A DNA stretch of 26,968 nt, taken from the IMG/VR virus record IMGVR_UViG_3300048003_000332, positions 1-26,968 of that record, one strand, 5' to 3'. This DNA is from a virus. Made by a program: the position numbers and the translations under genes. Below the pieces are notes generated by a model. It was not told where the DNA came from and searched no databases. It saw only the letters and a list, made by a program, of their open reading frames with translations. Position 1 is the stretch's first letter; every line of letters begins with the position of its first letter. Below, in pieces: positions 1-14,801 of this stretch.

Positions 1-779
1 GTTTATCGGGTGGAACTTCCTCTGCAACAATTACATTTGCGGATGATCAGGGTGCAGACTTTGGTACAACTGCATCATTCAGTACCACATGGAAAACACC
101 AAACGTGACAATCAGTATGAGTAACTTGAACGGAAAACAATTCCTTGAGACTTATACTTCTACATCATATACCGTCAATCAGACTAACATGTCATCTTCT
201 GCTAACTTTACTCATACAGTTTCTGGTACTGGAGGATCTCTTTCTAGTACTACTGGATCTGGGTCATTGACATTTACAACACCAATACACAAAGACAACG
301 GTGGAGGGAGACAAGTAGCTGTGAGTACAGAGTTTAGAAGACCTCCAGGCGTTGCAACAACTACATATGCAGCGACTGATACCGCATCCGATACCTCGTT
401 AAATGCAAACTTTTCGTATCCTTCATTGTGGATCTTTACTAATAGTACAGGATTAGCACCTACTAGAGCAGAGGTAGTTAATGGTGATCAGTTTGAATCT
501 GCAGTAAACGAATTAGGAAATCAAACAAATAACTTTACAGGCACTGTTAACAATCCAAATGCGACACCTCGTGCATTTTGGTTTATGATAAGGAGTGCAG
601 CATCACAACCAACAACATTTCAAACTGGTGCTAGTGCATCACTACTCAGTGATGTTGCATTTGTAACAGGCACATTAGATTTGGAACCAGATTCACCACC
701 TGCAGGTTACAGTGCAGAGACCTATAATTTATACGGTATCACTCTGCAGCCTGGCAACACTTATGTGAGTATTAGCTAA
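1..779 (+). CDS. C-terminal part of a phage structural (fibre/baseplate-type) protein, 5' end outside window
   Basis: The reading frame is open from base 3 to the TAA at 777-779 with no convincing internal start. A GTG at 105 has no Shine-Dalgarno sequence, and the frame upstream of it encodes protein of the same composition, so this is a 5'-truncated gene. The visible 258 residues are rich in Ser, Thr, Asn and Gly, without cysteine or a membrane segment, as expected of an extracellular beta-rich virion protein. The end (YNLYGITLQPGNTYVSIS) resembles C-terminal parts of uncharacterised marine T4-like phage structural proteins; that is recollection of the family, not a search result. The stop overlaps the next start by one base (TAATG), implying translational coupling with the giant fibre gene. 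The exact role is unknown. Confidence 0.75.
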   Translation, partial: LSGGTSSATITFADDQGADFGTTASFSTTWKTPNVTISMSNLNGKQFLETYTSTSYTVNQTNMSSSANFTHTVSGTGGSLSSTTGSGSLTFTTPIHKDNGGGRQVAVSTEFRRPPGVATTTYAATDTASDTSLNANFSYPSLWIFTNSTGLAPTRAEVVNGDQFESAVNELGNQTNNFTGTVNNPNATPRAFWFMIRSAASQPTTFQTGASASLLSDVAFVTGTLDLEPDSPPAGYSAETYNLYGITLQPGNTYVSIS

Positions 780-3700
780 TGCCCAATTATAACGGACTTA
801 CAAGAAACCAATGGCCAGGAACATGGAGTCCTAGTTCCAATCATCCCATTGCATTAGACACAGAGATAAGAGGTGGACTGCGTTATGTAAGTGGTGTAGA
901 TAGTGACACTGTAGTAGGAATACACGGACAAAGACTACAAGATGGGATGGTAGTCTATGTTAAGAACGCACATGGTGGATTTGAAGCAGACAGATACTAC
1001 AAATATCAATTAGGTTCAGGTCAACACAGAGATAGTAACACAGGTGAATTACCAAACGCTTCAAGTAATTGGGCTCCGTTTCAATTAGACTCTGCAGGAA
1101 CAATCGCACTCATAGATTCAGATTATGTTCAAGCACGTCAGAATGATTCAGTTGGTGTTGCAACACTTGCATCTAATGCAGAAAAACTAGGGGGACAGTT
1201 ACCTGCTCATTATCTAGATTTTAATAATATTACAAACCCACCTGCGATATTAGATACAGTGGATGTCTCTAACATTATTACCAATGATGTTGATAAAACA
1301 TTCGTAGACGCACTTGCAATCAACGCAGACAAACTTGACGGATTAGACAGACAACAATTCCTAAGAGCAGACCAGTCAGATTCCATGGTCGGTTCTCTCC
1401 ATATCGACTCAAACTTAGTAATCGGTGGTTACATTGCAGGGCCTGAAACGTTCTTCATTGATCCCGCTGCAGTTGGAGATAATACTGGTAAAGTTGTCAT
1501 CAAAGGTGACCTGCAAGTTGACGGTACACAAACTATAGTAAACTCAACTACCGTAACTATAAATGATAAAAACATTGTACTCGCAGACAGTGCTTCAGAT
1601 AGTGCAGAAGCAGACGGTGCAGGTATTACCGTAAACGGTGCTAATGCTAATATAACATATAATGCGACATCTGACAAGTGGGAATTTAACAAAGATATTG
1701 CTGCAGGTAATATCAATGCAACACTCTCTGGTACATTTACTGGATTTGATTCGGACTTCGATGTCAGACTTGCAACTAAAACTACAACAGATGTTGCCGA
1801 AGGTACGAACTTATACTATACTACTGCACGTCATGACTCAGACACGTTATCGCAAGTTGACAGTAGTTATGTTCAAACAAGACAAACACCTCAAGACTTT
1901 GCGTATAGTTCTTTAACTGGAGCACCAACCAATGTCTCCAGTTTTGTAAATGACGCAAACTATCTTGATTCAACAACGGTTCAAGGTGTAGTAACTGCAA
2001 ATTACATAGATGGTCTCGTAAATTTAAATTATTTAGATTCTGCAGAAGTAATTCAATTAGTCGATAGTGCATATGTACAGGCGAGAGAAGGTGATAAGAC
2101 ATTTGGATTAGCAGGTAATAGTGGTTCACACACATTTAATCCAGAAACAGAAACACTAACGTTCTTAGGAACAACTGGTCAAATCAATGCAGGTATCGCT
2201 GCAAACAATGTTACATTAGAACTAGATCAGAATATTAACAGTATCACCAGTATTGCTTTCGAAGGTGATTCGACAAATGCACTTGAAACAAAACTACAAG
2301 CAGTCAATCCTACTGCAGACAATGTAGTTAACTTACCAGACTCTAGTGGTACAATAGCATTGATGAGTGATGTTATCAATGCACAGATCTACTACAATAC
2401 TTCTGACTTTACAGATAGTGCATTCGTTACAGGTCTTCCTGTAAGTACATTTGATAACGATAAGAAATATCTCGATTCAAACTCCGCGACTGCCTTTATC
2501 GATAGTGCGTATGTTCAGTTAAGAAGTCCACCCACGGATCTCAGTGCAGTTGGTCAACATATCGTTCCTTCCACTGGATCTCTATATGACTTGGGGGACT
2601 CGAATTCTTTTTGGAGAGATCTGTATCTATCAGGTAGTACCATTGTACTTGGTGACCTGAAACTAGCACAACACACTGGTAGACTTAGAATTACAAACCG
2701 TCATAATGGTGCGGAAATAAAACTGGCTGCAGAAAATATAGGTGATCATAAGATTGACTCATCAGTAGTCACCTCATTAGCAAGTGCATTACCAGTTTCT
2801 ACATTTACAAATGATGCGAACTATCTCGACTCAGTAACAGTCAAGTCTGTTATAGACTCTGGTTACATTGCAACTGCAATGGAGACTGATAGTAATATTA
2901 CAGTCACAATCGTAAACAATATTACAGATACTGTTGACTCCGCATATGTTCTAGGAAGAGTCGCAGAAGCACCATTCTTAGATTCTTATTATACAACTGC
3001 GTTGGTTGACAATGCATACGTACAGGCGAGACAAACCGCACAAGATTTTGCATACAGTTCTCTAACTGGTAAACCTACGTTACCATCTTTCGGTAATGAC
3101 TTCGTTGACTCTGCAACAGTCCTAGACATTGTAAACTCTGCAGGTCTTGACTCGGATCTTGTCATTGCACTGGTTGACTCTGCATACATTCAACTTAGAG
3201 ATCGTTTCCAAGATTCTTCTTTGGTCACATCTACAGTCGATGCATCTTATGTACAATCAAGACAAGTAAAATATAACACATCTGATTTCTTAGATTCAAG
3301 TTCAGTTTTACTTGTAGTGGATAGTGCATATGTAAACGCAAGAGTATCTGGTGCAGACTCTGCAATCAATGCATCTGAAGCACTCAACGCAGATCAATTA
3401 GATGGTCAACATGGAACTTATTACCTAGACTATAATAACTTTAGTAATACACCAACTATACCAAATGTCAATGCCGCATATGTCAATGCGTTGAATGTTG
3501 ACGCTGATACTTTGGATGGTCAACACGGATCATACTATCTAAACTATAACAACTTATCGAATACACCTTCAACATTAACAACCACTGATGTTAAAAACGT
3601 TTTCAACTCAAGTGGTGATAATGAGATCAGTACTGGTGCGGTGGTCGATGCTAAGTATATTGAGTTTCCACATGACGGTGGAACACAACACACATACTCA

Positions 3701-6583
3701 GTAGAGGTTGTATCTAAAACATCTGCACACAGATATCAAGGATCTGGATCTTCTAATGGTTATCTGATTGATGGTGTAGAGTCTCCGTTCTTACAACTTG
3801 TCCCAGGCAATACATATCGGTTCGACCAGGCTAACGGAACTAACGGTACTCACCAGATTAGATTTTACTATGACGCCGCAAGAACAACTCTATATTCAAC
3901 TGGAGTCAGTTATAATGGTAATGCAGGACAGGCAGGGGCCTACACACAAATTGTTATTAGTGAGAGCACTCCTCCAGTTCTTTACTACCAGTGCGTCAAC
4001 CATGGTTACATGGGGAATGCGGTCTTTACACAGACTCGTAACCTAACTGGATTTACTACAGATGATCTTACAGAAGGTTCATCAAATCTTTACTATGATG
4101 CGTCAACTACAACATCATTAATTGACTCGAATTATATCCAGAACAGAACACGCATCGGTCTTGGTGATATAGACTTCGGTGCAAACAAAATCTTATATGC
4201 AAACGTTTACTCTACTACAGGTGACCTGCCAAGTGCATCTACTTACCATGGTATGTTTGCACATGTTCATGGAACTGGTAAAGGTTACTTCGCACATGGT
4301 GGCAACTGGATTGAACTTGCAAATGCTAGTGATGCTTTTAGTGGAAACTATAATAGTTTATCAAATAAACCTTCATTAGATTTCCTTGACTCTGCACTTG
4401 CTATACAATTAATCGACAGTGCATATGTACAATCGAGACAAACAACTGGTGGTGGTGGAACTGTTGATTCAGCTGGTGTCACTACACTTGTAACTAATTT
4501 AGTTGACTCCGCATATGTTAGTGCAAGATATACTGGTGCAGGTATCACACTTGCAACTGCAAGAGGAGGTATAAGTGTAACAACTGGTGCTGCTTCTGGT
4601 GGTGGTGCTCTTGCATATGACAATAGTACTGGTGTCTTAACATTCAATCCATCAACCAATACAGGTGGATCTGGTGGAGGCGGTGGCGGAACTGCAGATG
4701 GTATAACATTAAGTAAGTTCGTATACACTGCAGACTCAGGTCAGTTAGCATTTACAGACTCTGATGACACTGGAACTGTTCTTGCATATGATGCAAGTGA
4801 TACACAGATAAACGTATATTTAAATGGTATCCTTCTCGTAGACTCAGACGATTTCACATTGACGGATTCTTCTACGGTCACACTGACAACATCTGCTACA
4901 TTAAATGATATAGTACAAATCATCAAGTACACACCTCCAAGTGGTGGTAGTGGTGGTGGATCTGGTACAGTAGATTCTGCAAACATTGTAGGAATAATTG
5001 ACTCTGCATATGTACAAGCAAGACAATCTATACTATCACGTGGTTCGTTGGAAGTCAACAAGTATTTCTTTGATGCGTCTGCGAACCAAACTGTATTTAC
5101 TGGTAACGATAAATTTAGTAACCTTTTTGATGTAGATCCAAACAACACCGAAGTCTATTTAAATGGTGTTCTTCAAGAATTAACAACAGACTATACCATA
5201 ACGTCATCTCAAGTAACACTTGATGACGCAGCTGACAGTGGTTACTCGGTCACTGTAATAGAAACAATTGGTCGTGTCAATACCACATCTACATTTAATC
5301 AAACTGTATTTGAATATACTGCAGATTCTGGAGATACAATATTCTCAGGTACAGATAATAATGGTAGATCCTTAGATATGGCAACTGGTGCTATATCTAT
5401 TTACTTAAACGGTATCTTACTTTCTGAGACAAACGACTACACCAAAACAAATTCAACGGTGACCTTATTAGATGCAGCAGACTCTGCAGACATCATGAGT
5501 GTCCATGTTTCTTCAACTGTCGCTGCATCAAGTCTCAACACAAGACAATATCATTTTGCAGGTGTTACAGGAAAAACTTTAACTGGTAATGGACTAGGTT
5601 TTAGTGGTGGAGTTCAGGTATTTAAAAATAATGTGTTGATGGATGAACGTACAGATTATCTTACACAAAACGGTAATAAGATAGTCCTAACAGATTCAGC
5701 AGTACCTGTAGATAATTACACCATCCAAACATTCAACGCACAAGAATATATTGCTAAGTCATTTGATTTTGTTGCAACCGATGGACAAACTGTATTTACT
5801 GGTGATGATAGACATGGTAATGCACTTCTGTATCAACAGTCAGGAATGATCGTTTATTTAAACGGTATCGCTCTCGTTGAAAATACAGATTATGTCGCCA
5901 CAAATACTAGTACAGTCACATTTAACTCTGCTGTTGTTTTAAATGATGAAGTAAAAATCTTTACATTCATGCCTGCAGATTTAAGTTCTGTTGCAACACC
6001 TCTCACATTTGATACATTTGAATATACTGCTTCAATTGGTCAAACTCACTTTAGTGGTGCAGATATCCATGGTCAAACATTATCATATGACAGTGGCCTA
6101 GTCAATGTGTATTTGAATGGTTTATTACTAAGAACTGAGGACTTCAAAGACAGTTCAGGTTCTGTATTAACTTTAACAGATGCTGCTGATTTAGGAGACA
6201 ACTTAACGATTACCAAACTAACTGGTAATAATATTGGTCTAGATCGTGCGGAAGTTCAAGGTCTTATAACAACAAGTCTCGCTGAAAACGTTGCGACTTG
6301 GTCAGAAATAACTTCATCACCTGTAACGCTTACTTCAAATAGTAGAAACATTGTAGATACTACTAGTGCAAAAACTTTAACGTTACCTTTAACCGCATCT
6401 ATGGGTGATGAAATAAGAATTTTAGATGGGACTGGTAATGCGTCTACATATAATATAACAGTAGCTAGAAATGGACATAAGATACAAGGTGGCACATCAA
6501 ACTTAGTAATAGATGTTGATCGTGCAGGTATTGGTCTCGTTTACTATAATGTCGCTCAAGGTTGGATATTGATAGAGAACTAA
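779..6583 (+). CDS. Giant tail-fibre-like structural protein (1934 aa) with DSAYVQARQ repeats and cupredoxin-like domain
   Basis: Very long, repeat-built virion protein with no signal peptide or membrane segment. In order: an N-terminal head (about 1-115); a fibre section with copies of the motif (I/V)DSAYVQ(A/S/L)R; NADKLDG/HYLDFNN-type repeats; a conserved fibre block around residues 224-310 (DKNIVLADSA); a cupredoxin-like domain at about 965-1085; further DSAYVQ repeats joined by poly-Gly linkers near residues 1220-1405; six repeats of about 80 residues with VYLNGILL at their core (about 1308-1820); and a C-terminal cap ending in GLVYYNVAQGWILIEN. The cap and the LYLSGSTIVLG segment are typical of marine T4-like phage fibres. 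It starts at the TAATG overlap with the upstream gene. A long, probably trimeric fibre or whisker is the best guess; attachment point and receptor are unknown. It lies where T4 has its short tail fibre and fibritin genes. Confidence 0.85.
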   Translation: MPNYNGLTRNQWPGTWSPSSNHPIALDTEIRGGLRYVSGVDSDTVVGIHGQRLQDGMVVYVKNAHGGFEADRYYKYQLGSGQHRDSNTGELPNASSNWAPFQLDSAGTIALIDSDYVQARQNDSVGVATLASNAEKLGGQLPAHYLDFNNITNPPAILDTVDVSNIITNDVDKTFVDALAINADKLDGLDRQQFLRADQSDSMVGSLHIDSNLVIGGYIAGPETFFIDPAAVGDNTGKVVIKGDLQVDGTQTIVNSTTVTINDKNIVLADSASDSAEADGAGITVNGANANITYNATSDKWEFNKDIAAGNINATLSGTFTGFDSDFDVRLATKTTTDVAEGTNLYYTTARHDSDTLSQVDSSYVQTRQTPQDFAYSSLTGAPTNVSSFVNDANYLDSTTVQGVVTANYIDGLVNLNYLDSAEVIQLVDSAYVQAREGDKTFGLAGNSGSHTFNPETETLTFLGTTGQINAGIAANNVTLELDQNINSITSIAFEGDSTNALETKLQAVNPTADNVVNLPDSSGTIALMSDVINAQIYYNTSDFTDSAFVTGLPVSTFDNDKKYLDSNSATAFIDSAYVQLRSPPTDLSAVGQHIVPSTGSLYDLGDSNSFWRDLYLSGSTIVLGDLKLAQHTGRLRITNRHNGAEIKLAAENIGDHKIDSSVVTSLASALPVSTFTNDANYLDSVTVKSVIDSGYIATAMETDSNITVTIVNNITDTVDSAYVLGRVAEAPFLDSYYTTALVDNAYVQARQTAQDFAYSSLTGKPTLPSFGNDFVDSATVLDIVNSAGLDSDLVIALVDSAYIQLRDRFQDSSLVTSTVDASYVQSRQVKYNTSDFLDSSSVLLVVDSAYVNARVSGADSAINASEALNADQLDGQHGTYYLDYNNFSNTPTIPNVNAAYVNALNVDADTLDGQHGSYYLNYNNLSNTPSTLTTTDVKNVFNSSGDNEISTGAVVDAKYIEFPHDGGTQHTYSVEVVSKTSAHRYQGSGSSNGYLIDGVESPFLQLVPGNTYRFDQANGTNGTHQIRFYYDAARTTLYSTGVSYNGNAGQAGAYTQIVISESTPPVLYYQCVNHGYMGNAVFTQTRNLTGFTTDDLTEGSSNLYYDASTTTSLIDSNYIQNRTRIGLGDIDFGANKILYANVYSTTGDLPSASTYHGMFAHVHGTGKGYFAHGGNWIELANASDAFSGNYNSLSNKPSLDFLDSALAIQLIDSAYVQSRQTTGGGGTVDSAGVTTLVTNLVDSAYVSARYTGAGITLATARGGISVTTGAASGGGALAYDNSTGVLTFNPSTNTGGSGGGGGGTADGITLSKFVYTADSGQLAFTDSDDTGTVLAYDASDTQINVYLNGILLVDSDDFTLTDSSTVTLTTSATLNDIVQIIKYTPPSGGSGGGSGTVDSANIVGIIDSAYVQARQSILSRGSLEVNKYFFDASANQTVFTGNDKFSNLFDVDPNNTEVYLNGVLQELTTDYTITSSQVTLDDAADSGYSVTVIETIGRVNTTSTFNQTVFEYTADSGDTIFSGTDNNGRSLDMATGAISIYLNGILLSETNDYTKTNSTVTLLDAADSADIMSVHVSSTVAASSLNTRQYHFAGVTGKTLTGNGLGFSGGVQVFKNNVLMDERTDYLTQNGNKIVLTDSAVPVDNYTIQTFNAQEYIAKSFDFVATDGQTVFTGDDRHGNALLYQQSGMIVYLNGIALVENTDYVATNTSTVTFNSAVVLNDEVKIFTFMPADLSSVATPLTFDTFEYTASIGQTHFSGADIHGQTLSYDSGLVNVYLNGLLLRTEDFKDSSGSVLTLTDAADLGDNLTITKLTGNNIGLDRAEVQGLITTSLAENVATWSEITSSPVTLTSNSRNIVDTTSAKTLTLPLTASMGDEIRILDGTGNASTYNITVARNGHKIQGGTSNLVIDVDRAGIGLVYYNVAQGWILIEN
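3671..4036 (+). other. Cupredoxin-like domain embedded in the giant fibre
   Basis: Residues about 965-1085 of the 1934-aa protein. The segment has the strand pattern of small blue-copper proteins: YLIDGVESPFLQLVPGNTYRFD, then GTHQIRFY, then LYYQCVNHGYMGN. The candidate type-1 copper ligands are His1025, Cys1072, His1075 and Met1078. The C-x2-H-x2-M spacing equals that of amicyanin, and the upstream His sits in a 'His-hydrophobic-x-Phe' strand as in that family. The ligand pattern is seen directly; copper binding is inference. Confidence 0.6.
4700..6238 (+). repeat. Six tandem ~80-residue fibre repeats (VYLNGILL type)
   Basis: Residues about 1308-1820 of the giant fibre hold six successive units following the pattern FxYTADSGQTxFSGxD...(V/I)YLNG(I/V)LL...DYT...VTLxDAADxxD. 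They are diverged from one another (the fourth is the most degenerate, with VFKNNVLM at its core), so they are old protein-level repeats rather than recent DNA duplications. They probably form serial beta-domains along a shaft. Confidence 0.75.
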
Positions 6584-6584
6584 G

Positions 6585-8087
6585 ATGGTAACACTCAGTA
6601 GTTTAAGACAACAGGTCGAAGCACAACAAGGTACAACAGGTTTAGATTCCTCACAGGTATCTGCAATCTCAGGATCTGGGGTTTCTGTTTATGAAACACT
6701 TGACTCTTTACCGAGTACAGGGTTGACTGCAGGTGACGAAGCATTTGTAAAAAGTAATTACAGACTTTATGTTTCAAATGGTTTGGGTTGGTATAATACA
6801 ACTTTGGTTAACAGAACTCCACGTTGGGACTCTGGTGGGGAACCAGACGCATCTTACAGTATTGCAGATTCTGCAACGCCTCTTATCATAACTGCGAGAG
6901 CAATAGACTCTGATAATGGAAGTCTTATCAACCAATCGATTGTTAGTGACAGTGCTCAGTATATGGCAACTATATCTAACGATTCATCTGTGTGGACATT
7001 TACTCCAAAAAGTGCAGACTCTATAGGTATAGAAGTAGCGGCAGGTAACCTAACGGATTCCAATGGTGACTTTGTTTATACATTCAAGTGGTCAGATGGT
7101 ATTAGTTTTGTTTCCAAGGCGGCAACTATTTCATATAATGCTGCATCTGCAGCTGGTTCTTCAGGTGGACATGTATACACAATCTCAGGCACATATAATT
7201 GGACTGCACCAGCTGGTGTCACTTCAGTTTCTGTTGTTGCAGTAGGCGGAGGTGGTGGAGGTGATAACTATTTTGGATCGGGTGGTACTGGTGGTGGTTT
7301 AGGTTGGAAAAATAATATTACCGTGATACCTGGCCAAACATATACTGTTGTTGTTAATGCTAGTGGTGCAGGAGATGCTACTGGTACTTCTGATAATGTA
7401 ACAGGTGGTGCAGCAGGTGGAGATAGTTATTTTATCAACAATTCCACAGTTGCTGGTTTTGGAGGGCCTGCAGGTGTGCCATATTCTGCAGGAACTCTTC
7501 CATCTCAGGGAGGTACTTATGTAGGAGATGGTGGCGGTAATGGGGGTATAGGTTTACGATATGGGCAATCAGGCGGTGCTCCATCTTACATAGCATGTGG
7601 TGGTGCAGGCGCAGGTGGATATAGTGGCAATGGTGGTAATGGTGGAGGTTCATCCGCAGGAAATGGTTCCTATGTAAGCCCAACTGCAGGTCAAGGCGGT
7701 GGTGGTGGTGGTTCTGGCGGTACTTGGACAAACACAGGTTCAGGTTCTGATGTTTATTCTGGTGCATCAGGTGGTGGTGTTGGAATCTATGGTGAAGGTA
7801 GTAATGGAGCAGCTGGTAGTGGTGTTCAGGGAAGTACAGCTGGTACAGCAGGTGGAGGTGGTTCGGGAGGCACAAATGGTAGTCCTTCAGTTCAGACAGG
7901 TAGCGGTACAAATGCGCCAGATGCCTCAGGATATGGAGGTGGTGGTGCAGGAAACCACGGTAATGGTGTTGGAAATGGCGGTGCTGGTGGTGGTGGTGCA
8001 GTAAGAATTATTTGGGGTAATGGACGATCATTTCCATCCACAAATGTAGATTTGGTCTCTTCTTTAGATGGAGAGTCAACTAATTAA
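6585..8087 (+). CDS. Fibre/adhesin paralogue 1 with glycine-rich C-terminal domain (500 aa)
   Basis: First of four tandem paralogues. Residues 1-185 form the shared module: a segment SLPxTGLxxGDxAFV...RLYVSNGxGWYN (about 41-71), followed by an Ig/cadherin-like segment TPLIITARAIDSDN...NDSSVWTFTPKSAD...YTFKWSDG (about 98-180). Residues about 196-490 form a glycine-rich adhesin domain that opens with YNWTAPAGVTSVSVVAVGGGG and closes with GGGGAVRIIWGNGRSFPSTN, both hallmarks of glycine-rich phage tail-tip domains. Stacked Gly-Gly-x runs suggest a polyglycine-II or loop-rich packing like that of gp38-type adhesins; this is inference. The ATG lies 1 nt after the giant fibre's stop, so translation is probably coupled. 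The role is likely host receptor recognition. Confidence 0.8.
   Translation: MVTLSSLRQQVEAQQGTTGLDSSQVSAISGSGVSVYETLDSLPSTGLTAGDEAFVKSNYRLYVSNGLGWYNTTLVNRTPRWDSGGEPDASYSIADSATPLIITARAIDSDNGSLINQSIVSDSAQYMATISNDSSVWTFTPKSADSIGIEVAAGNLTDSNGDFVYTFKWSDGISFVSKAATISYNAASAAGSSGGHVYTISGTYNWTAPAGVTSVSVVAVGGGGGGDNYFGSGGTGGGLGWKNNITVIPGQTYTVVVNASGAGDATGTSDNVTGGAAGGDSYFINNSTVAGFGGPAGVPYSAGTLPSQGGTYVGDGGGNGGIGLRYGQSGGAPSYIACGGAGAGGYSGNGGNGGGSSAGNGSYVSPTAGQGGGGGGSGGTWTNTGSGSDVYSGASGGGVGIYGEGSNGAAGSGVQGSTAGTAGGGGSGGTNGSPSVQTGSGTNAPDASGYGGGGAGNHGNGVGNGGAGGGGAVRIIWGNGRSFPSTNVDLVSSLDGESTN
7056..7093 (+). repeat. 38-bp perfect direct repeat, copy 1
   Basis: Begins GATTCCAATGG and ends TTCAAGTGGTC. It is identical over 38 bases to 8632-8669 in the next paralogue, and encodes DSNGDFVYTFKW of the shared N-terminal module. 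Flanking codons encode nearly the same protein but differ at most synonymous positions. Confidence 0.9.
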
Positions 8088-8090
8088 ATA
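8084..8090 (+). promoter_or_regulatory. Possible weak late promoter core TTAAATA
   Basis: TTAAATA overlaps the stop codon (8085-8087) of the glycine-rich paralogue and stands 40 nt before the next ATG. It differs from the T4-type late core TATAAATA but sits in one of the few real gaps of the fibre cluster. In A+T-rich DNA this can arise by chance. Confidence 0.25.
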
Positions 8091-8130
8091 TGAGTGAAAT
8101 GTTATCAGTATAGTACAGGAATTTAATTAA

Positions 8131-9393
8131 ATGGGTAGATCACGAGACATAGCAGAAATATTAGGTAAGACAGAAACAGATAATCCGTCTAACTTAGTTC
8201 TATTGAACACCAGTTCTCCTACAGGTGTCGATTCTGCACAGGTACAAAATATTGGTTTAGAACATTTTTCTACATTAGATTCTCTGCCCATAACTAATTT
8301 AGAAGCAGGACAACAAGCATACGTTTCTGGAACAAACAGATTGTATATGTCAAATGGATCTGGTTGGTTTAACGTTGCGTTGATAAATGCAACTCCATAC
8401 TGGGATTCAGAACCCTTATCTACATATGAAATTGTAGATTCTCAAACTCCTTTGATTATTACTGCAAAAGCATTTGACTCGGATGGGCCAAGTAGTGCTA
8501 TAGTTAATCAAAGTTTTGGTACTGATAGTGCACAATATATGGTAAACATAAGTAATGATTCATCAGTGTTTACTTTTACACCGAAGAGTGCAGACAGTAT
8601 CGGAATTGAGGTTGCCGCAGGTAACTTAACAGATTCCAATGGTGACTTTGTTTATACATTCAAGTGGTCTGACGGAATAAATTTTGTAAGTAAAATATCA
8701 ACTATATCATACTCTCCTAACAGTTCAGGAAATAGTGATGTTGCATTTAGAGGTTTTGCACAGGGTGTTTGGGGAAGTTTTGGATCTTCACCTACTACTT
8801 TAAATCTGACAATGCCATCAGGGACAATAGCAGGTGACAGGGCAGTAGTAGTTCTGCATGGACTAGGTTATCCTTCTACTCAGGTTAGTTTTCCTAATGG
8901 CAATTTTTCAAATTCATATTCATATGAATGGGGTTATTCTATTGGTAATACAGGTTATGGTTCTTACGTTTGGGAGGACACTGTTGTAGGAGATGAACTC
9001 TTAACTAATGGTGTAAATTTAAACCAATCTGATGGTTCAACATCTTATAAGATGGCAACATTAATAACCTTTGGAGGTGGAGTAACACCACTATATAACC
9101 ATGCACAGATAGATTATACTACTCCTAGCGTAAATAGTTATTATACCGTTGCTTCCGCCACGCCTCCTACAGGATATGCAAGTAAGACTGGACTATTGGA
9201 AGTTCATGGTACAAGAGAGGGACAAAGAACATATACCAGTGCTACAAATGGAACTCTTTTAGGTAGTGTTAACAGAAGTATATATTACATACAAGCGCTC
9301 TATCAAGCATCGTCCTTGGCGCAACAATACCATCGATTTCAAGCTAACGCTGTTTCTAACTATTCAGCATCCTCAATAACTATTGCGTGGTAA
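8131..9393 (+). CDS. Fibre/adhesin paralogue 2 with unrecognised C-terminal domain (420 aa)
   Basis: Residues 1-195 are the shared module (SLPITNLEAGQQAYV, RLYMSNGSGWFN, TPLIITAKAFDSDG, KSADSIGIEVAAGNLTDSNG); over about 30 residues it is identical in protein to paralogue 1. Residues about 200-420 are different from all neighbours: Ser/Tyr/Gly-rich, with VVVLHGLGY, LLEVHGTREGQ and a C-terminal end SNYSASSITIAW, consistent with a beta-sandwich, but I recognise no family. The start is the ATG after a short A+T-rich gap with AGGA about 11 nt upstream. Its stop is followed 2 nt later by the next paralogue's ATG. Likely a receptor-binding or decoration fibre tip on the same anchor type. Confidence 0.75.
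   Translation: MGRSRDIAEILGKTETDNPSNLVLLNTSSPTGVDSAQVQNIGLEHFSTLDSLPITNLEAGQQAYVSGTNRLYMSNGSGWFNVALINATPYWDSEPLSTYEIVDSQTPLIITAKAFDSDGPSSAIVNQSFGTDSAQYMVNISNDSSVFTFTPKSADSIGIEVAAGNLTDSNGDFVYTFKWSDGINFVSKISTISYSPNSSGNSDVAFRGFAQGVWGSFGSSPTTLNLTMPSGTIAGDRAVVVLHGLGYPSTQVSFPNGNFSNSYSYEWGYSIGNTGYGSYVWEDTVVGDELLTNGVNLNQSDGSTSYKMATLITFGGGVTPLYNHAQIDYTTPSVNSYYTVASATPPTGYASKTGLLEVHGTREGQRTYTSATNGTLLGSVNRSIYYIQALYQASSLAQQYHRFQANAVSNYSASSITIAW
8632..8669 (+). repeat. 38-bp perfect direct repeat, copy 2
   Basis: Identical to 7056-7093. Both copies are in the same relative position of the shared module, 1576 bp apart. Confidence 0.9.
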
Positions 9394-9395
9394 TA

Positions 9396-11216
9396 ATGAG
9401 TAAGTCATTAGACATTGTTAGGATACTTCGTTCTTCTGCGTTCGAAAACTCCAACAATAATGCATTTATAACAAATGTTGATCAGTTAGGAAGTACTTTA
9501 GATTCTGCAGCGGTTCAATCAATTCCAATGCAATATTTTGAAACACTGGACTCTTTACCACTTACAAATCTATCCTTGGGTCTCCAAGCATTTGTAGAAG
9601 AGAATAAAAGACATTATGTGTCAAACGGATCTGGTTGGTATAATACAGGATATGTAATTAGTTCTTCACCTTATTGGGTTAGTGATCCTTCATCAACATA
9701 CGAAATTGTGGATTCCGCGACACCACTTATAGTAATTGCTAAACCTCAAGATTCGGACAATCCAAATTTAATTAATCAAAGTTTTGGTAGTGACAGTGCA
9801 CTATACATGGCAACGATATCTAATGACTCATCCGTATTTACATTCACACCTAAAACAAAAACTGAGATAGGAACTGCAATTAATGCAGGCAATCTTACAG
9901 ATTCTAATGGTGATTTTATCTACACGTTTAAATGGAGTGATGGAACAAACTTTGTTGCAAAAGCAGTAACAATAACTTATAACACTGTAAATAGGGGCCC
10001 TGTTTTAAAATGGACAATACCTAATCCAAATAATTATACTGGTAGTGGTGGTGATTATTTTGGTAGTACAATTGCTATGTCTGACACTTACACTGTAATA
10101 GGTGTACCAAATGAGGATACTGCATCAAATACTGGAGATGGTGTAGCATATATTTTTGAAAATAGCACAGGTAATTTGGTAAGAACAATTAGTAATCCTA
10201 ATCCTAATTCTAACTTTGATAATGATAATTTTGGTAAGGATGTAGGCATCAATAACAATGGTCAGGTATTAATCTCTACACCAAATGAAGATGACTGGAC
10301 ATCATATTTGGATGTTGGTAAAGCGTATGTATACAATATATCAACTGGTTCATTAGTATATACCTTTTCTAATCCAAATCACTATGGATCTCCATCCAGT
10401 GATCAATTTGGACTCTCATCCGATATGGATGATGATCACGTTATAGTAGGTGCTAGATTAGAAGAGGAATCAGGTTCCTCATCTGATGATGGTTCTGGTA
10501 AAGCTTACATATTCAGATTATCTAATGGTTCATTACGTCATTCATTGACTAATCCAAATGCATATGGTACTAGACAGAGTGACATATTTGGAAACGCTGT
10601 CGCAATTAAAGGAAATTATGCTATTGTCGGTGCACACCAAGAGGATGATGCAGGTGGTTCGAGTTCAGGTGCGGCATATGTATTTAATGTTTCTACAGGT
10701 AATGTAGTATATTCATTAACAAACCCTAATGCACAAGACACGAGTAATTATGATCAATTTGGATATAGAGTTGCAATTAGTGACAATTATTTTGCTGTAA
10801 GTGCGTACAGTGAAAAAGGCCCTAACCCCAACAATTATGAATATTCTGGTGCAGTATATGTTTATGACATATCAACTGGTAACCTACTACATACTTTAGA
10901 AAATCCTAATCCGACTGGAACTGAAGAATATGATTATTTCGGTTTTGGACTTGCAATTAACGATAAGTATGTTGTCTGTGGTACACCTTATGAGGATACA
11001 ACTGGAGATGCTTCGGGTGTAGTATATGTATTTGATATAACCAATGGTAACCTACTACATACAATAGATAATCCAAATGCTCAAGGTGTAGCAACAAATG
11101 ATAGATTTGGTCAATTTGTTGCAGCGTCTGATGGATATATTTCTGCGACTGCACCTAATGACTTTGGTAGTACTGCAGATTCAAATGGTACACTTTATAT
11201 TTGGGATTTACCATAA
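9396..11216 (+). CDS. Fibre/adhesin paralogue 3 with seven-repeat FG-GAP (integrin-alpha-like) beta-propeller (606 aa)
   Basis: Residues 1-200 are the shared module (SLPLTNLSLGLQAFV, YVSNGSGWYN, TPLIVIAKPQDSDN, YTFKWSDG). Residues about 202-606 contain seven repeats of about 58 residues, each with an Asp-aromatic/hydrophobic-Phe-Gly turn (DYFGS, DNFGK, DQFGL, DIFGN, DQFGY, DYFGF, DRFGQ), a strand such as YVVCGTPYED, and an outer strand such as VVYVFDITNGNLLHT followed by NPN. This is the FG-GAP pattern known from integrin alpha chains, where seven repeats close one propeller. VLKWTIPNPN before repeat 1 and LYIWDLP at the very C-terminus could complete the ring. I place the start at ATG 9396; the GTG at 9387 is upstream but has no ribosome site. 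Probable receptor-binding tip; ligand unknown. Confidence 0.8.
   Translation: MSKSLDIVRILRSSAFENSNNNAFITNVDQLGSTLDSAAVQSIPMQYFETLDSLPLTNLSLGLQAFVEENKRHYVSNGSGWYNTGYVISSSPYWVSDPSSTYEIVDSATPLIVIAKPQDSDNPNLINQSFGSDSALYMATISNDSSVFTFTPKTKTEIGTAINAGNLTDSNGDFIYTFKWSDGTNFVAKAVTITYNTVNRGPVLKWTIPNPNNYTGSGGDYFGSTIAMSDTYTVIGVPNEDTASNTGDGVAYIFENSTGNLVRTISNPNPNSNFDNDNFGKDVGINNNGQVLISTPNEDDWTSYLDVGKAYVYNISTGSLVYTFSNPNHYGSPSSDQFGLSSDMDDDHVIVGARLEEESGSSSDDGSGKAYIFRLSNGSLRHSLTNPNAYGTRQSDIFGNAVAIKGNYAIVGAHQEDDAGGSSSGAAYVFNVSTGNVVYSLTNPNAQDTSNYDQFGYRVAISDNYFAVSAYSEKGPNPNNYEYSGAVYVYDISTGNLLHTLENPNPTGTEEYDYFGFGLAINDKYVVCGTPYEDTTGDASGVVYVFDITNGNLLHTIDNPNAQGVATNDRFGQFVAASDGYISATAPNDFGSTADSNGTLYIWDLP
10041..11213 (+). 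repeat. Seven FG-GAP repeats forming a predicted beta-propeller
   Basis: Seven protein repeats with a period near 58 residues; the FG turns lie from residue 222 (first) to about 571 (last) of the 606-aa protein. They end flush with the stop codon, so the propeller is the C-terminal tip. Confidence 0.75.
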
Positions 11217-12790
11217 TGAGTAGTTTTAACAGAAAACTTGCAGATCTAATAAATGCTCAAGGAGGAGTAAAGAGTTCTAAGATTGATTCTTTTGATTCGA
11301 GTGAAGTAGAAACAATTATTACTTCAAATGTATCTGGATCTGTGGTATATCTTAATAGTTTAGATAGTTTACCTACCACTGGATTGAGTGATGGTCAGAA
11401 AGCACTTGTAAAAATTAACGATAGTATAGGTAGACTTTATATTTCTGATGGGTCTGGTTGGTACAATGCAGACACAAATCTAAACACTGCAGGCCCAACA
11501 TGGGTTACAGAACCAGATGCAACTTACACCATTTCAGATTCTGTAACACCCTTAACTATTACTGCACTTGCAACTGATGTTGACTCAGATGTATTAGTAG
11601 ATACCAGTGTCGTTACAGACAGTGCCCAATACTTGGTTACTATTACTAACGATTCTTCTGTATGGACTTTTACTCCTAAGACTGCCGATCAAATAGGGGA
11701 TGCAGTCGCTGCAGGTAACCTAGAAGATTCTAGTGGTGAATTTGTTTACACTTTTAGATGGAATGACGGTGTCAATGTTGTTTCCAAAGACGTAACTATT
11801 TCGTATAGTACTGCTCCAATAACAGCACCTGCTTGGGGTGGTGCTAGGTATGTTATGAATATTGGTTATACTAGATCAGATTATAACGGTAATGGATCTA
11901 ATTATAACGCCGTGGTTAATGACTTAAACTATGGTAATATTGCTACACCTGCCAACGCACAAGATTTTGGAAACTTGAGTCGTGCTAAAGATGAAATAAC
12001 TTCAAACATTAGCAATGGTACTAGAGGTATTTTTTGGGGTGGAACTCGTGATCAGATAAATGGGCCTTGGTGGGGAGATAGAAATATTGATATGATTACT
12101 CCTGCGACACTGGGAAACACTACGCTTTTTGGTTACGTGAATTACTACACAACTTTGTCAAACCCGACAAGACATTATACTAACTATAATGCGTCTGGAA
12201 CAAGTGATGGAATTTATGGATTACAGATGGGTGGGTATTCCGCTGTTGCAGGTAGTAGAAGCACTATTGAATACATCACCATAGACACTCAAAGCAATGC
12301 GTCAAACTTTGGGTCTACTGGAACTCCAGGCGGAAACAACTCAGCTTGGAATGATGCAACTCGTAGTGTGTTGTACGTTGGAACTAATAATAGTTATTAT
12401 AGTTCTTGGATAGCATATCTAACAACTCAGACAGTAGGTAATGCAACTGGAATTAGTAATACCCATCCTCATGGTGATGGTCAAGGATCAACTTCTGATG
12501 CTACTAGGGGAGTCACCTCTGGTGGAGATGAAATTTCATCTCATACCTCAGATATAACTTATAATGTAACACAAAATTTAACTGATGCTATAGATTTTGG
12601 AAATTTGTCAGTAGAGACTGTTGGTGGTAAATCCGCGGCGTGCGATGGAGTATATGCGGTGTTTTTCGGTTGCGCTAGTCAGGTTACCATGGAATACGTT
12701 ACGGTACAAACAACTAGTAACGCAACAGACTTTGGTGATTTACTTTTTAAATCGTCAAACGGTGCAGCTCTTTCTGGAAATGCCGCATAA
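11216..12790 (+). CDS. Fibre/adhesin paralogue 4 with kelch-like propeller domain (524 aa)
   Basis: Residues 1-203 are the shared module (SLPTTGLSDGQKALV, RLYISDGSGWYN, TPLTITALATDVDSD, YTFRWNDG), the most diverged of the four. The remainder has about six units with strands such as IEYITIDTQSNASNFG, TMEYVTVQTTSNATDFG and turns such as NGTRGIFWGG and DATRGVTSGG, a kelch-like propeller pattern common in marine phage and plankton proteins. The last unit lacks its Gly-Gly strand while PAWGGARYVMNIG just after the module could supply it, as in 'velcro' closure; this is inference. ATG 11216 overlaps the previous stop by one base (TAATG); the in-frame TTG at 11201 is inside the preceding gene and unnecessary. 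Confidence 0.75.
   Translation: MSSFNRKLADLINAQGGVKSSKIDSFDSSEVETIITSNVSGSVVYLNSLDSLPTTGLSDGQKALVKINDSIGRLYISDGSGWYNADTNLNTAGPTWVTEPDATYTISDSVTPLTITALATDVDSDVLVDTSVVTDSAQYLVTITNDSSVWTFTPKTADQIGDAVAAGNLEDSSGEFVYTFRWNDGVNVVSKDVTISYSTAPITAPAWGGARYVMNIGYTRSDYNGNGSNYNAVVNDLNYGNIATPANAQDFGNLSRAKDEITSNISNGTRGIFWGGTRDQINGPWWGDRNIDMITPATLGNTTLFGYVNYYTTLSNPTRHYTNYNASGTSDGIYGLQMGGYSAVAGSRSTIEYITIDTQSNASNFGSTGTPGGNNSAWNDATRSVLYVGTNNSYYSSWIAYLTTQTVGNATGISNTHPHGDGQGSTSDATRGVTSGGDEISSHTSDITYNVTQNLTDAIDFGNLSVETVGGKSAACDGVYAVFFGCASQVTMEYVTVQTTSNATDFGDLLFKSSNGAALSGNAA
11901..12787 (+). repeat. Kelch-like repeats (about six units)
   Basis: Units carry recurring Y(V/I)T(I/V)xTxSNAxxFG and DxxRGxxxGG elements at roughly 45-60-residue spacing; the copies are diverged. 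This is read by eye and the unit number is approximate. Confidence 0.55.
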
Positions 12791-13607: not shown

Positions 13608-14801
13608 ATGGCTCGTAACCTCTACTTCTCGGAGAAAGTAAGATCTGAAATGGATCTCTATGCAGACTTAGTCATAGAGTCATTAAAGATCTATGGACAA
13701 GATGTATACTATTTACCGAGAGACTTGGTAAACGAAGATGTGCTATTAGGAGATGATGTTACATCTCGATTCCCAACATCTCATAAGATAGAGATGTACA
13801 TAGAGAACGTAGAAGGATTTGACGGAGAGGGAGATCTATTCACTAGGTTTGGTGTAGAGATTAGAGACGAAGCAACCTTTGTGGTTGCACGTACAAGATT
13901 CTCTGCACAGGTTCGCAGACCAGACAATGACATTGCAACCGACAGACCTACAGAGGGTGATTTGATTTATCTTCCTCTTACAAATAAAATGTTTGAGATA
14001 CAACACGTAGAACATGAACAACCGTTCTATCAGATAGAGAACTTACCAGTATACAAAATGAGGGCAACTCTATTTGAATACACAGGAGAAGACTTTGACA
14101 CAGGTATCGAAGGTATTCAAGATATTGAGAAGACAGGTTCTTATCAGTACAAAGTTTGTCTAACTGCACCTAAGAAACCTACTACGTCAGTCACTATGAA
14201 TTTTGAGTACGATGATAATGTATTCGATTCTGGATATGGGCCACTTGGTACAATATCAACTGTGTCTATACTTACTGGTGGTACATATTATACAACACCA
14301 CCAACTATAAGATTTGTGGGTGGAGATCCAGATGACAGTGCAGAAGCAACAGCGATAATAGATTCCGCGACAGGTCTTGTAACATCTGTTGTAGTTACAA
14401 ATGGTGGATCAGGATACGAAACATTACCACTCATTGCTTTTGATGGTGGTAGTTCAATGGATAGTGATTATTCAATCGGTGATACAGTCAAACAAGTTAT
14501 TGCAGATGGTGTTACAATTACTGGTGAGATTCAAAACATCGATCTTGATTCTGCAGGTGACAGTGATCGTTGCTTATATCTTGCACATGTTGGTGCAGAC
14601 GATGGTAAATATCATACCTTCACAACTGGTGGAACACTACTAAACGTAACAAATAATGCACTTACTGGATTTACTATAACGACAGTTAGTGAAGATAATA
14701 AAATTTCAGAAACAGAACAAAACGAGACATTTACAGATTTTAGTGACGATTTCTTAGATTTCACAGAAGATAACCCATTCGGTGATGCAGAAAACAACTA
14801 A
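13608..14801 (+). CDS. gp14: Neck protein gp14 with C-terminal extension (397 aa)
   Basis: The N-terminus MARNLYFSEKVRSEMDLYAD followed by VIESLKIYGQDVYYLPRDLVNED matches gp14 of T4-like marine phages; gp14 works with gp13 in head completion and head-tail joining. T4 gp14 is 256 aa, so this copy is much longer. The surplus is at about residues 214-365: a segment with TGGTYYTTPPTIRFVGG and VVTNGGSGYETLPLIAFDGG (a repeated Gly-Gly-x-Tyr-x-Thr-x-Pro beta motif seen in phage fibre proteins) and a following Asp/Thr-rich part. The protein ends acidic (FSDDFLDFTEDNPFGDAENN). AGGA lies 8 nt before the ATG. The gp14 identity is firm; the function of the extension is unknown. Confidence 0.9.
   Translation: MARNLYFSEKVRSEMDLYADLVIESLKIYGQDVYYLPRDLVNEDVLLGDDVTSRFPTSHKIEMYIENVEGFDGEGDLFTRFGVEIRDEATFVVARTRFSAQVRRPDNDIATDRPTEGDLIYLPLTNKMFEIQHVEHEQPFYQIENLPVYKMRATLFEYTGEDFDTGIEGIQDIEKTGSYQYKVCLTAPKKPTTSVTMNFEYDDNVFDSGYGPLGTISTVSILTGGTYYTTPPTIRFVGGDPDDSAEATAIIDSATGLVTSVVVTNGGSGYETLPLIAFDGGSSMDSDYSIGDTVKQVIADGVTITGEIQNIDLDSAGDSDRCLYLAHVGADDGKYHTFTTGGTLLNVTNNALTGFTITTVSEDNKISETEQNETFTDFSDDFLDFTEDNPFGDAENN

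Follow-up and report, generated by a model that had tools for sequence, protein, structure and literature searches.

The window analysed here (the whole stretch of 26,968 nucleotides, IMG/VR virus record IMGVR_UViG_3300048003_000332) carries a long tail-fibre-like open reading frame (ORF), within which lies the domain examined in this study (Table 1). Other genes of the record are T4-like by PHROG, namely those for the head-tail adaptor Ad2, the head closure protein Hc2 and the tail sheath stabilizer. Among the best 10 matches in the phage collection, the nearest relative of the window portal is that of phage C48C1 (67.1% identity), followed by portals of Pelagibacter, Methylophilales and Synechococcus phages at about 49-52%. 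Repeats of the DSAYVQARQ / LNYNNLSNTPS type are shared between the fibre and a 697-aa ORF. Behind the fibre, four tandem ORFs of 500, 420, 609 and 529 aa (window 6585-12790) have in common an N-terminal region some 170-200 aa long, at 48.6-66.9% identity, and differ in their C-termini, of which one is glycine-rich (PF21722), one is an FG-GAP propeller (PF14312) and two have no Pfam match; these four ORFs look like alternative adhesins. In the Hc2 protein (window 13608-14801, 397 aa), matches to baseplate or virion structural PHROGs at residues about 214-285 lie apart from the Hc2 match and represent a possible extra domain.

Table 1. Features of the fibre ORF and its predicted cupredoxin domain, in window coordinates (A1 is an alignment and A4 a profile of phage domains, both described in the text).
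Feature	Position	Strand	Remarks
Tail-fibre-like ORF carrying the domain	779..6583	+	1934 aa; repeats DSAYVQARQ / LNYNNLSNTPS around the domain
Predicted cupredoxin domain, residues 965-1086	3671..4036	+	AlphaFold2 model, PDB matches, profile matches, module boundaries
His1025 codon, proposed first equatorial type-1 Cu ligand	3851..3853	+	Invariant in A1; aligned with plastocyanin copper His
Cys1072 codon, proposed thiolate ligand, the fibre's only Cys	3992..3994	+	Alignment A1, profile A4, residue count
His1075 codon, proposed second His ligand	4001..4003	+	Alignment A1, profile A4
Met1078 codon, proposed axial ligand	4010..4012	+	Alignment A1, profile A4

An initial annotation of this DNA had proposed that the fibre contains a cupredoxin domain with a complete type-1 copper ligand set. 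Reading the translation by script places His1025 in GTHQIRFY and Cys1072, His1075 and Met1078 in YYQCVNHGYMGN, correct to the residue, and the C-x2-H-x2-M loop is present in the fibre as described, with the spacing of amicyanin. The fibre has one Cys in total, and when its residues were shuffled 20,000 times, any C..H..M arrangement appeared in 4 shuffles. The best PHROG match covers the domain itself: phrog_30742, a tail fiber protein, matches fibre residues 972-1088 (E 6.9e-46, residues 21-134 of the 142-aa domain query), and the core common to the relatives comprises residues about 969-1086.

A tblastn search with the window domain found relatives in 42 of 50,697 phage records, all at less than 60% identity; these belong to Prochlorococcus, Synechococcus, Methylophilales and Pelagibacter phages and to other records of marine viruses. 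A sister type of the domain is present in 325 phage records, duplicates and strains counted, and 46 of 60 among the matches listed are annotated as gp9 or baseplate wedge tail fibre connector. The domain forms the C-terminus of gp9 in P-SSM4 and ACG-2014d, and is carried elsewhere by gp7 of P-HM2 and by P-SSM4 region proteins, by fibres of P-SSM2, Bellamy, Melnitz and Mosig, by virion proteins of S-TIM5 and by the podovirus-like P-GSP1. The BFVD collection gave 69 models at E <= 0.001, including some giant-virus "beta-sandwich" proteins at 18-25% identity. The pithovirus/marseillevirus "beta-sandwich" proteins A0A481Z6J5, A0A481YWX9, A0A481YY19 and A0A481Z7Q7 stand at E about 1e-8 with 20-25% identity in the same search. 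Scans of viral contigs returned 35, 141 and 383 loci, of which we kept 80 of the 141 and 80 of the 383. Two tblastn searches of plasmids found no relative, and neither did two pattern-seeded scans of cellular genomes, which reach close relatives only and so leave room for a cellular source of the domain. The guess that related, unannotated domains exist in marine phages thus proved right, given the 42 and 325 phage records and the BFVD models. In the literature searched, which comprised openly licensed papers only, we found no description of a structural cupredoxin domain in phages, nor any earlier record of this known fold in such an arrangement.

Alignment A1 comprises the window domain and 27 relatives (28 domains), leaving out the truncated copy L004 and near-identical rows among the viral contig relatives. 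Nine of its columns are invariant, including those of all four proposed ligands. The larger conservation set consists of 216 loci plus the window, giving 237 domain rows, 183 of them unique. The complete ligand set is preserved in 176 of the 183 unique copies (178 span all four columns), so that the ligands do not vary freely among homologues, as the cupredoxin proposal had anticipated. At 70% redundancy all four are kept in 39/44 copies, Met1078 in 40/40 covered copies, and among the 106 columns of this 44-row set the entropy ranks are 2nd for Met1078, 5th for His1075, 7th for His1025 and 8th for Cys1072. Most loci were collected by scans that used short peptides as seeds, in some cases the ligand loop itself, and the 183-copy set is therefore biased. 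An unseeded set, made up of 21 chosen regions of named phage records found by tblastn, contains 25 copies; the site is complete in 20 and incomplete in 5. One of the seven non-intact rows among the 183 is a contig-edge fragment (L035), and the other six are true exceptions (L041 first copy, L045 third copy, L052, L053, L057 and L106). Each of the six lacks at least two ligands and none lacks exactly one; in three, the aligned stretch ends ahead of the loop and no such motif follows, and in L041 and L045 an intact copy is also present in the same protein. Both synonymous codons are in use at each His and at Cys among the 176 intact copies, which indicates that conservation acts at the protein level. 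Within the C-x2-H-x2-M loop, the x positions vary among copies. A sister copy from S-SKS1 (L056) has the longer loop CTTGGHGGM, that is C-x4-H-x2-M. C..H..M arrangements hold 207 of the 448 Cys residues in 204 unique, often partial, carrier ORFs, and 85 of these ORFs have no other Cys. Taken together, the invariant ligand columns, the single Cys of the fibre and the rarity of the arrangement in shuffles argue that the motif is more than chance.

Searched alone, the window domain matched nothing in Pfam or NCBIfam at E <= 10, and phmmer against the PDB returned one phage tail fibre (E 0.44) and no copper protein. Since the single sequence thus points to no copper family, a link to copper proteins has to come from profiles or from a structure model. 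At E <= 10, the A1 profile matched 12 PDB sequences; all but one of these are copper proteins (11 of 12), with a copper nitrite reductase as the best match (E 2.4e-5). With the A4 profile, built from nine phage domains picked for diversity, the window's among them, the best 24 PDB sequences are all copper proteins, including nitrite reductase (E 7.1e-6), plastocyanin (1.5e-4), amicyanin (3.5e-3) and pseudoazurin (6e-3); the first non-copper match is titin (0.04). The likeness to amicyanin suggested in the initial annotation stands for the loop spacing; we found no particular kinship beyond it, and with A4 nitrite reductase and plastocyanin outscore amicyanin. In the printed A4 profile alignments, all four ligands are in register with those of two plastocyanins. 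When the nine A4 members were searched singly against Pfam at E <= 1, five matched Copper-bind (best 4.7e-4) and two Cupredoxin_1 (best 2.3e-4), the window member matching neither; among the A1 members, Copper-bind appeared at E <= 1 in only 2/28, beside other weak families.

Plastocyanin (PF00127) has no match in the window's record or in the window protein. Run on eight phage records, the Pfam plastocyanin profile detected genuine plastocyanins in four. It also matched three sister-type domains at scores below the cut-off, namely in a 1098-aa ORF of P-SSM2 (E 1.8e-4), in an 816-aa ORF of P-TIM68 (0.007) and in one of 175 aa in S-SCSM2R (0.02). Compared with the four phage plastocyanins, A1 gave a weak match by hhalign (probability 1.6) and A4 a fair one by profile comparison (probability 69.7).

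The AlphaFold2 model of the domain, computed from A1, has a mean pLDDT of 90.9 and a pTM of 0.84; it is all-beta with nine strands listed, and together with its PDB structure matches it predicts a cupredoxin-type Greek-key beta-sandwich. Foldseek against the PDB gave copper proteins as 50/50 among the matches listed, and eight chains at E <= 0.001, all rusticyanin. The TM-scores of the Foldseek matches are modest (0.41-0.54 by query length), and their rmsd is often 4-8 Angstrom. VIA-align likewise gave rusticyanin, laccases or copper nitrite reductase as 50/50 among the matches listed, with Z from 8.6 to 7.7; by the tool's own caveat a Z near 8 can be generic, and the whole listing here is one superfamily. 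In model numbering (fibre residue minus 959), the first His is predicted just ahead of strand 68-71, Cys at the end of strand 108-113, and the second His and Met ahead of strand 121-125. In fibre numbering these residues are His1025, Cys1072 and, within the loop that comes after the Cys strand, His1075 and Met1078, an arrangement that agrees with the proposed cupredoxin. For rusticyanin 1rcy, the VIA aligned range stops at model residue 126 and chain residue 155, and rusticyanin entry titles name Met148 and His143 as mutated residues; counting back from these end points, model Met119 would match chain residue 148 if the last strand is ungapped. A longer model of residues 880-1215, made from a shallow alignment, has a mean pLDDT of 43.9 with flanks below 50, and in it the domain scored below its level in the first model. 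By predicted fold and by profile, the assignment of the window domain as a cupredoxin is well supported.

The carriers of the domain are structural proteins of many kinds. Three near relatives of the window fibre (L001, L002 and L004) are alike across the flanks too. In L005, L006 and L010, domain identity to the window over 118 positions is 74, 72 and 70, with upstream flank matches of 9/72, 15/79 and 9/74 and downstream flank matches of 21/79, 17/103 and 14/76, respectively. Depending on the ORF, the domain precedes or follows another shared fibre domain or occurs by itself, and 16 carrier ORFs have two copies. It is absent from the fibre of phage C48C1, though the gene order behind the fibre is the same. 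The fibre of C48C1, a different protein, matches the window fibre over one stretch of 35 residues; it hence documents the absence of the domain but offers no empty site.

In our assessment, the best explanation (probability roughly 0.6) is a type-1 copper cupredoxin module that marine phages have shuffled among fibre, gp9 and gp7 proteins, that is copper-bound and that has a mainly stabilising role. Residues about 965-1086 would form an autonomous module around a mononuclear type-1 site of His1025, Cys1072, His1075 and Met1078, which marine phages appear to have moved among structural proteins of the tail-fibre, gp9 and gp7 types. Copper would be bound in the virion, and would probably be acquired after lysis or in the cell envelope, because the cytosol, the compartment of assembly, has almost no free copper. 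The metal may then act mainly like an internal staple, which locks and stabilises the beta-sandwich in an exposed fibre devoid of other cysteines, and not as an enzyme, a part of the reading of which we are less sure. Such a module-locking role is suggested because the loop positions vary, the contexts are many and the carriers are poor in other cysteines for disulfides; varying x positions are also unlike what one conserved redox partner would impose. The 5/25 unseeded copies with an incomplete site imply that the fold can last without it, which counts against copper being indispensable for stability.

That the metal or an exposed face of the domain serves adsorption by docking to host copper is unlikely in our view. 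The domain could mimic a periplasmic or outer-membrane copper protein or offer copper to an uptake receptor, which would be a copper counterpart of the "Trojan/Ferrojan horse" proposal made for iron in phage tails. Its presence in fibres, in the fibre connector gp9 and in baseplate wedge proteins fits this idea, as does C48C1, whose lack of it indicates that the domain moves together with the fibre rather than with the virion backbone; but the domain lies in mid-fibre or C-terminally in gp9, which does not point to a receptor-binding tip, and the loop residues vary. Iron bound by HxH in tail fibres, the published idea that comes closest, has been proposed to act in this way (in a passage of PMC11705849), but for another phage group host iron-uptake mutants were without effect (in a passage of PMC10892097). 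A redox-active site, at which copper moves electrons or senses redox, for instance as a fibre switch or in quenching oxidants at the host surface, would account for the full Cys-His2-Met set of electron-transfer cupredoxins being kept in 176/183 copies, when a purely structural site could accept other ligands. We nevertheless regard it as quite unlikely, given the variable loop, the lack of a conserved patch around the exposed His and the lack of an evident partner gene in the 26,968-base record, itself a fragment.

Scarce free copper in the cytosol, where assembly takes place, and the copies that lost the site yet retain the rest of the domain would both suit a cupredoxin fold that works without copper, holding another soft metal such as Zn or serving folding or thiol chemistry. 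An axial Met is typical of copper and not of zinc, however, and Met1078 is invariant in the 28 sequences as well as in all 40 covered copies at 70% redundancy; moreover, incomplete copies drop several ligands together, as expected of a metal site, and we judge this alternative quite unlikely as well. That the motif arose by chance in an unrelated immunoglobulin-like domain of the fibre, as the failure of the window sequence alone to match any copper family might suggest, is contradicted by conservation, profile searches and fold, and we give this reading next to no credence. The copper-locked structural module is thus the reading that we prefer. A bolder and doubtful extension is that marine phage virions are blue-copper particles: copper-loaded cupredoxins in tail fibres and in gp9 baseplate connectors would act on the host surface through their redox state or exposed copper face, either as a switch or in docking to host copper proteins; if true, it would link phage adsorption with the copper chemistry of the ocean.

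If copper is bound, a class of abundant marine viruses infecting Synechococcus, Prochlorococcus, Pelagibacter and Methylophilales would expose on the surface of their particles, within fibre and baseplate proteins, a metal capable of redox chemistry. To date, arguments for metal use in phage adsorption or stability have mainly concerned iron. The domain also calls for care in annotation, because at least one structural domain of the sister type, in S-SCSM2R, is already labelled PetE. This "PetE" (L037:2791-3297, XQU50115.1) lies beside a peptidase S8 gene and is a structural-type domain; the S-SCSM2R plastocyanin that scores above the Pfam cut-off is encoded elsewhere in the genome. The phrog_30742 "tail fiber protein" and PSSM2_295 of P-SSM2 (59.8% identity) contain the same domain as the window, and in the outputs seen neither phrog_30742 nor fibre proteins such as PSSM2_295 carry a copper-domain annotation.

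In fold, in strand and ligand order and in the Cys-His2-Met set, the phage domain is predicted to be like the blue copper proteins plastocyanin, amicyanin, pseudoazurin and rusticyanin, and the cupredoxin domains of copper nitrite reductase and small laccases have the same predicted fold and ligand set; nitrite reductase 6hbe has the C-x2-H-x2-M spacing of the window domain in its C-terminal part (YICSIHPYMKG). Unlike the blue copper proteins, the phage domain is embedded in a structural protein of the virion and has neither a signal peptide nor a known redox partner. Amicyanin, for example, is a free periplasmic electron carrier for methylamine dehydrogenase, whereas the window domain is part of a 1934-aa fibre ORF. 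Cyanophage plastocyanin PetE, known as a metabolic gene (in a passage of PMC2984593), is likewise a cupredoxin encoded by marine phages and shares genomes with the structural type in 4 of the 8 records tested, but it is a separate small secreted protein with a C-x2-H-x4-M loop. Directly following the first His, the structural phage domains have Gln or, in most cases, Pro, and the four phage plastocyanins have Asn. Iron-binding HxH motifs are present in T4 gp37 and in marine phage tail fibres, according to a passage of PMC11705849; such fibres likewise carry metal, but as octahedral iron along the trimer, in contrast to the single cupredoxin site per chain that is predicted here.
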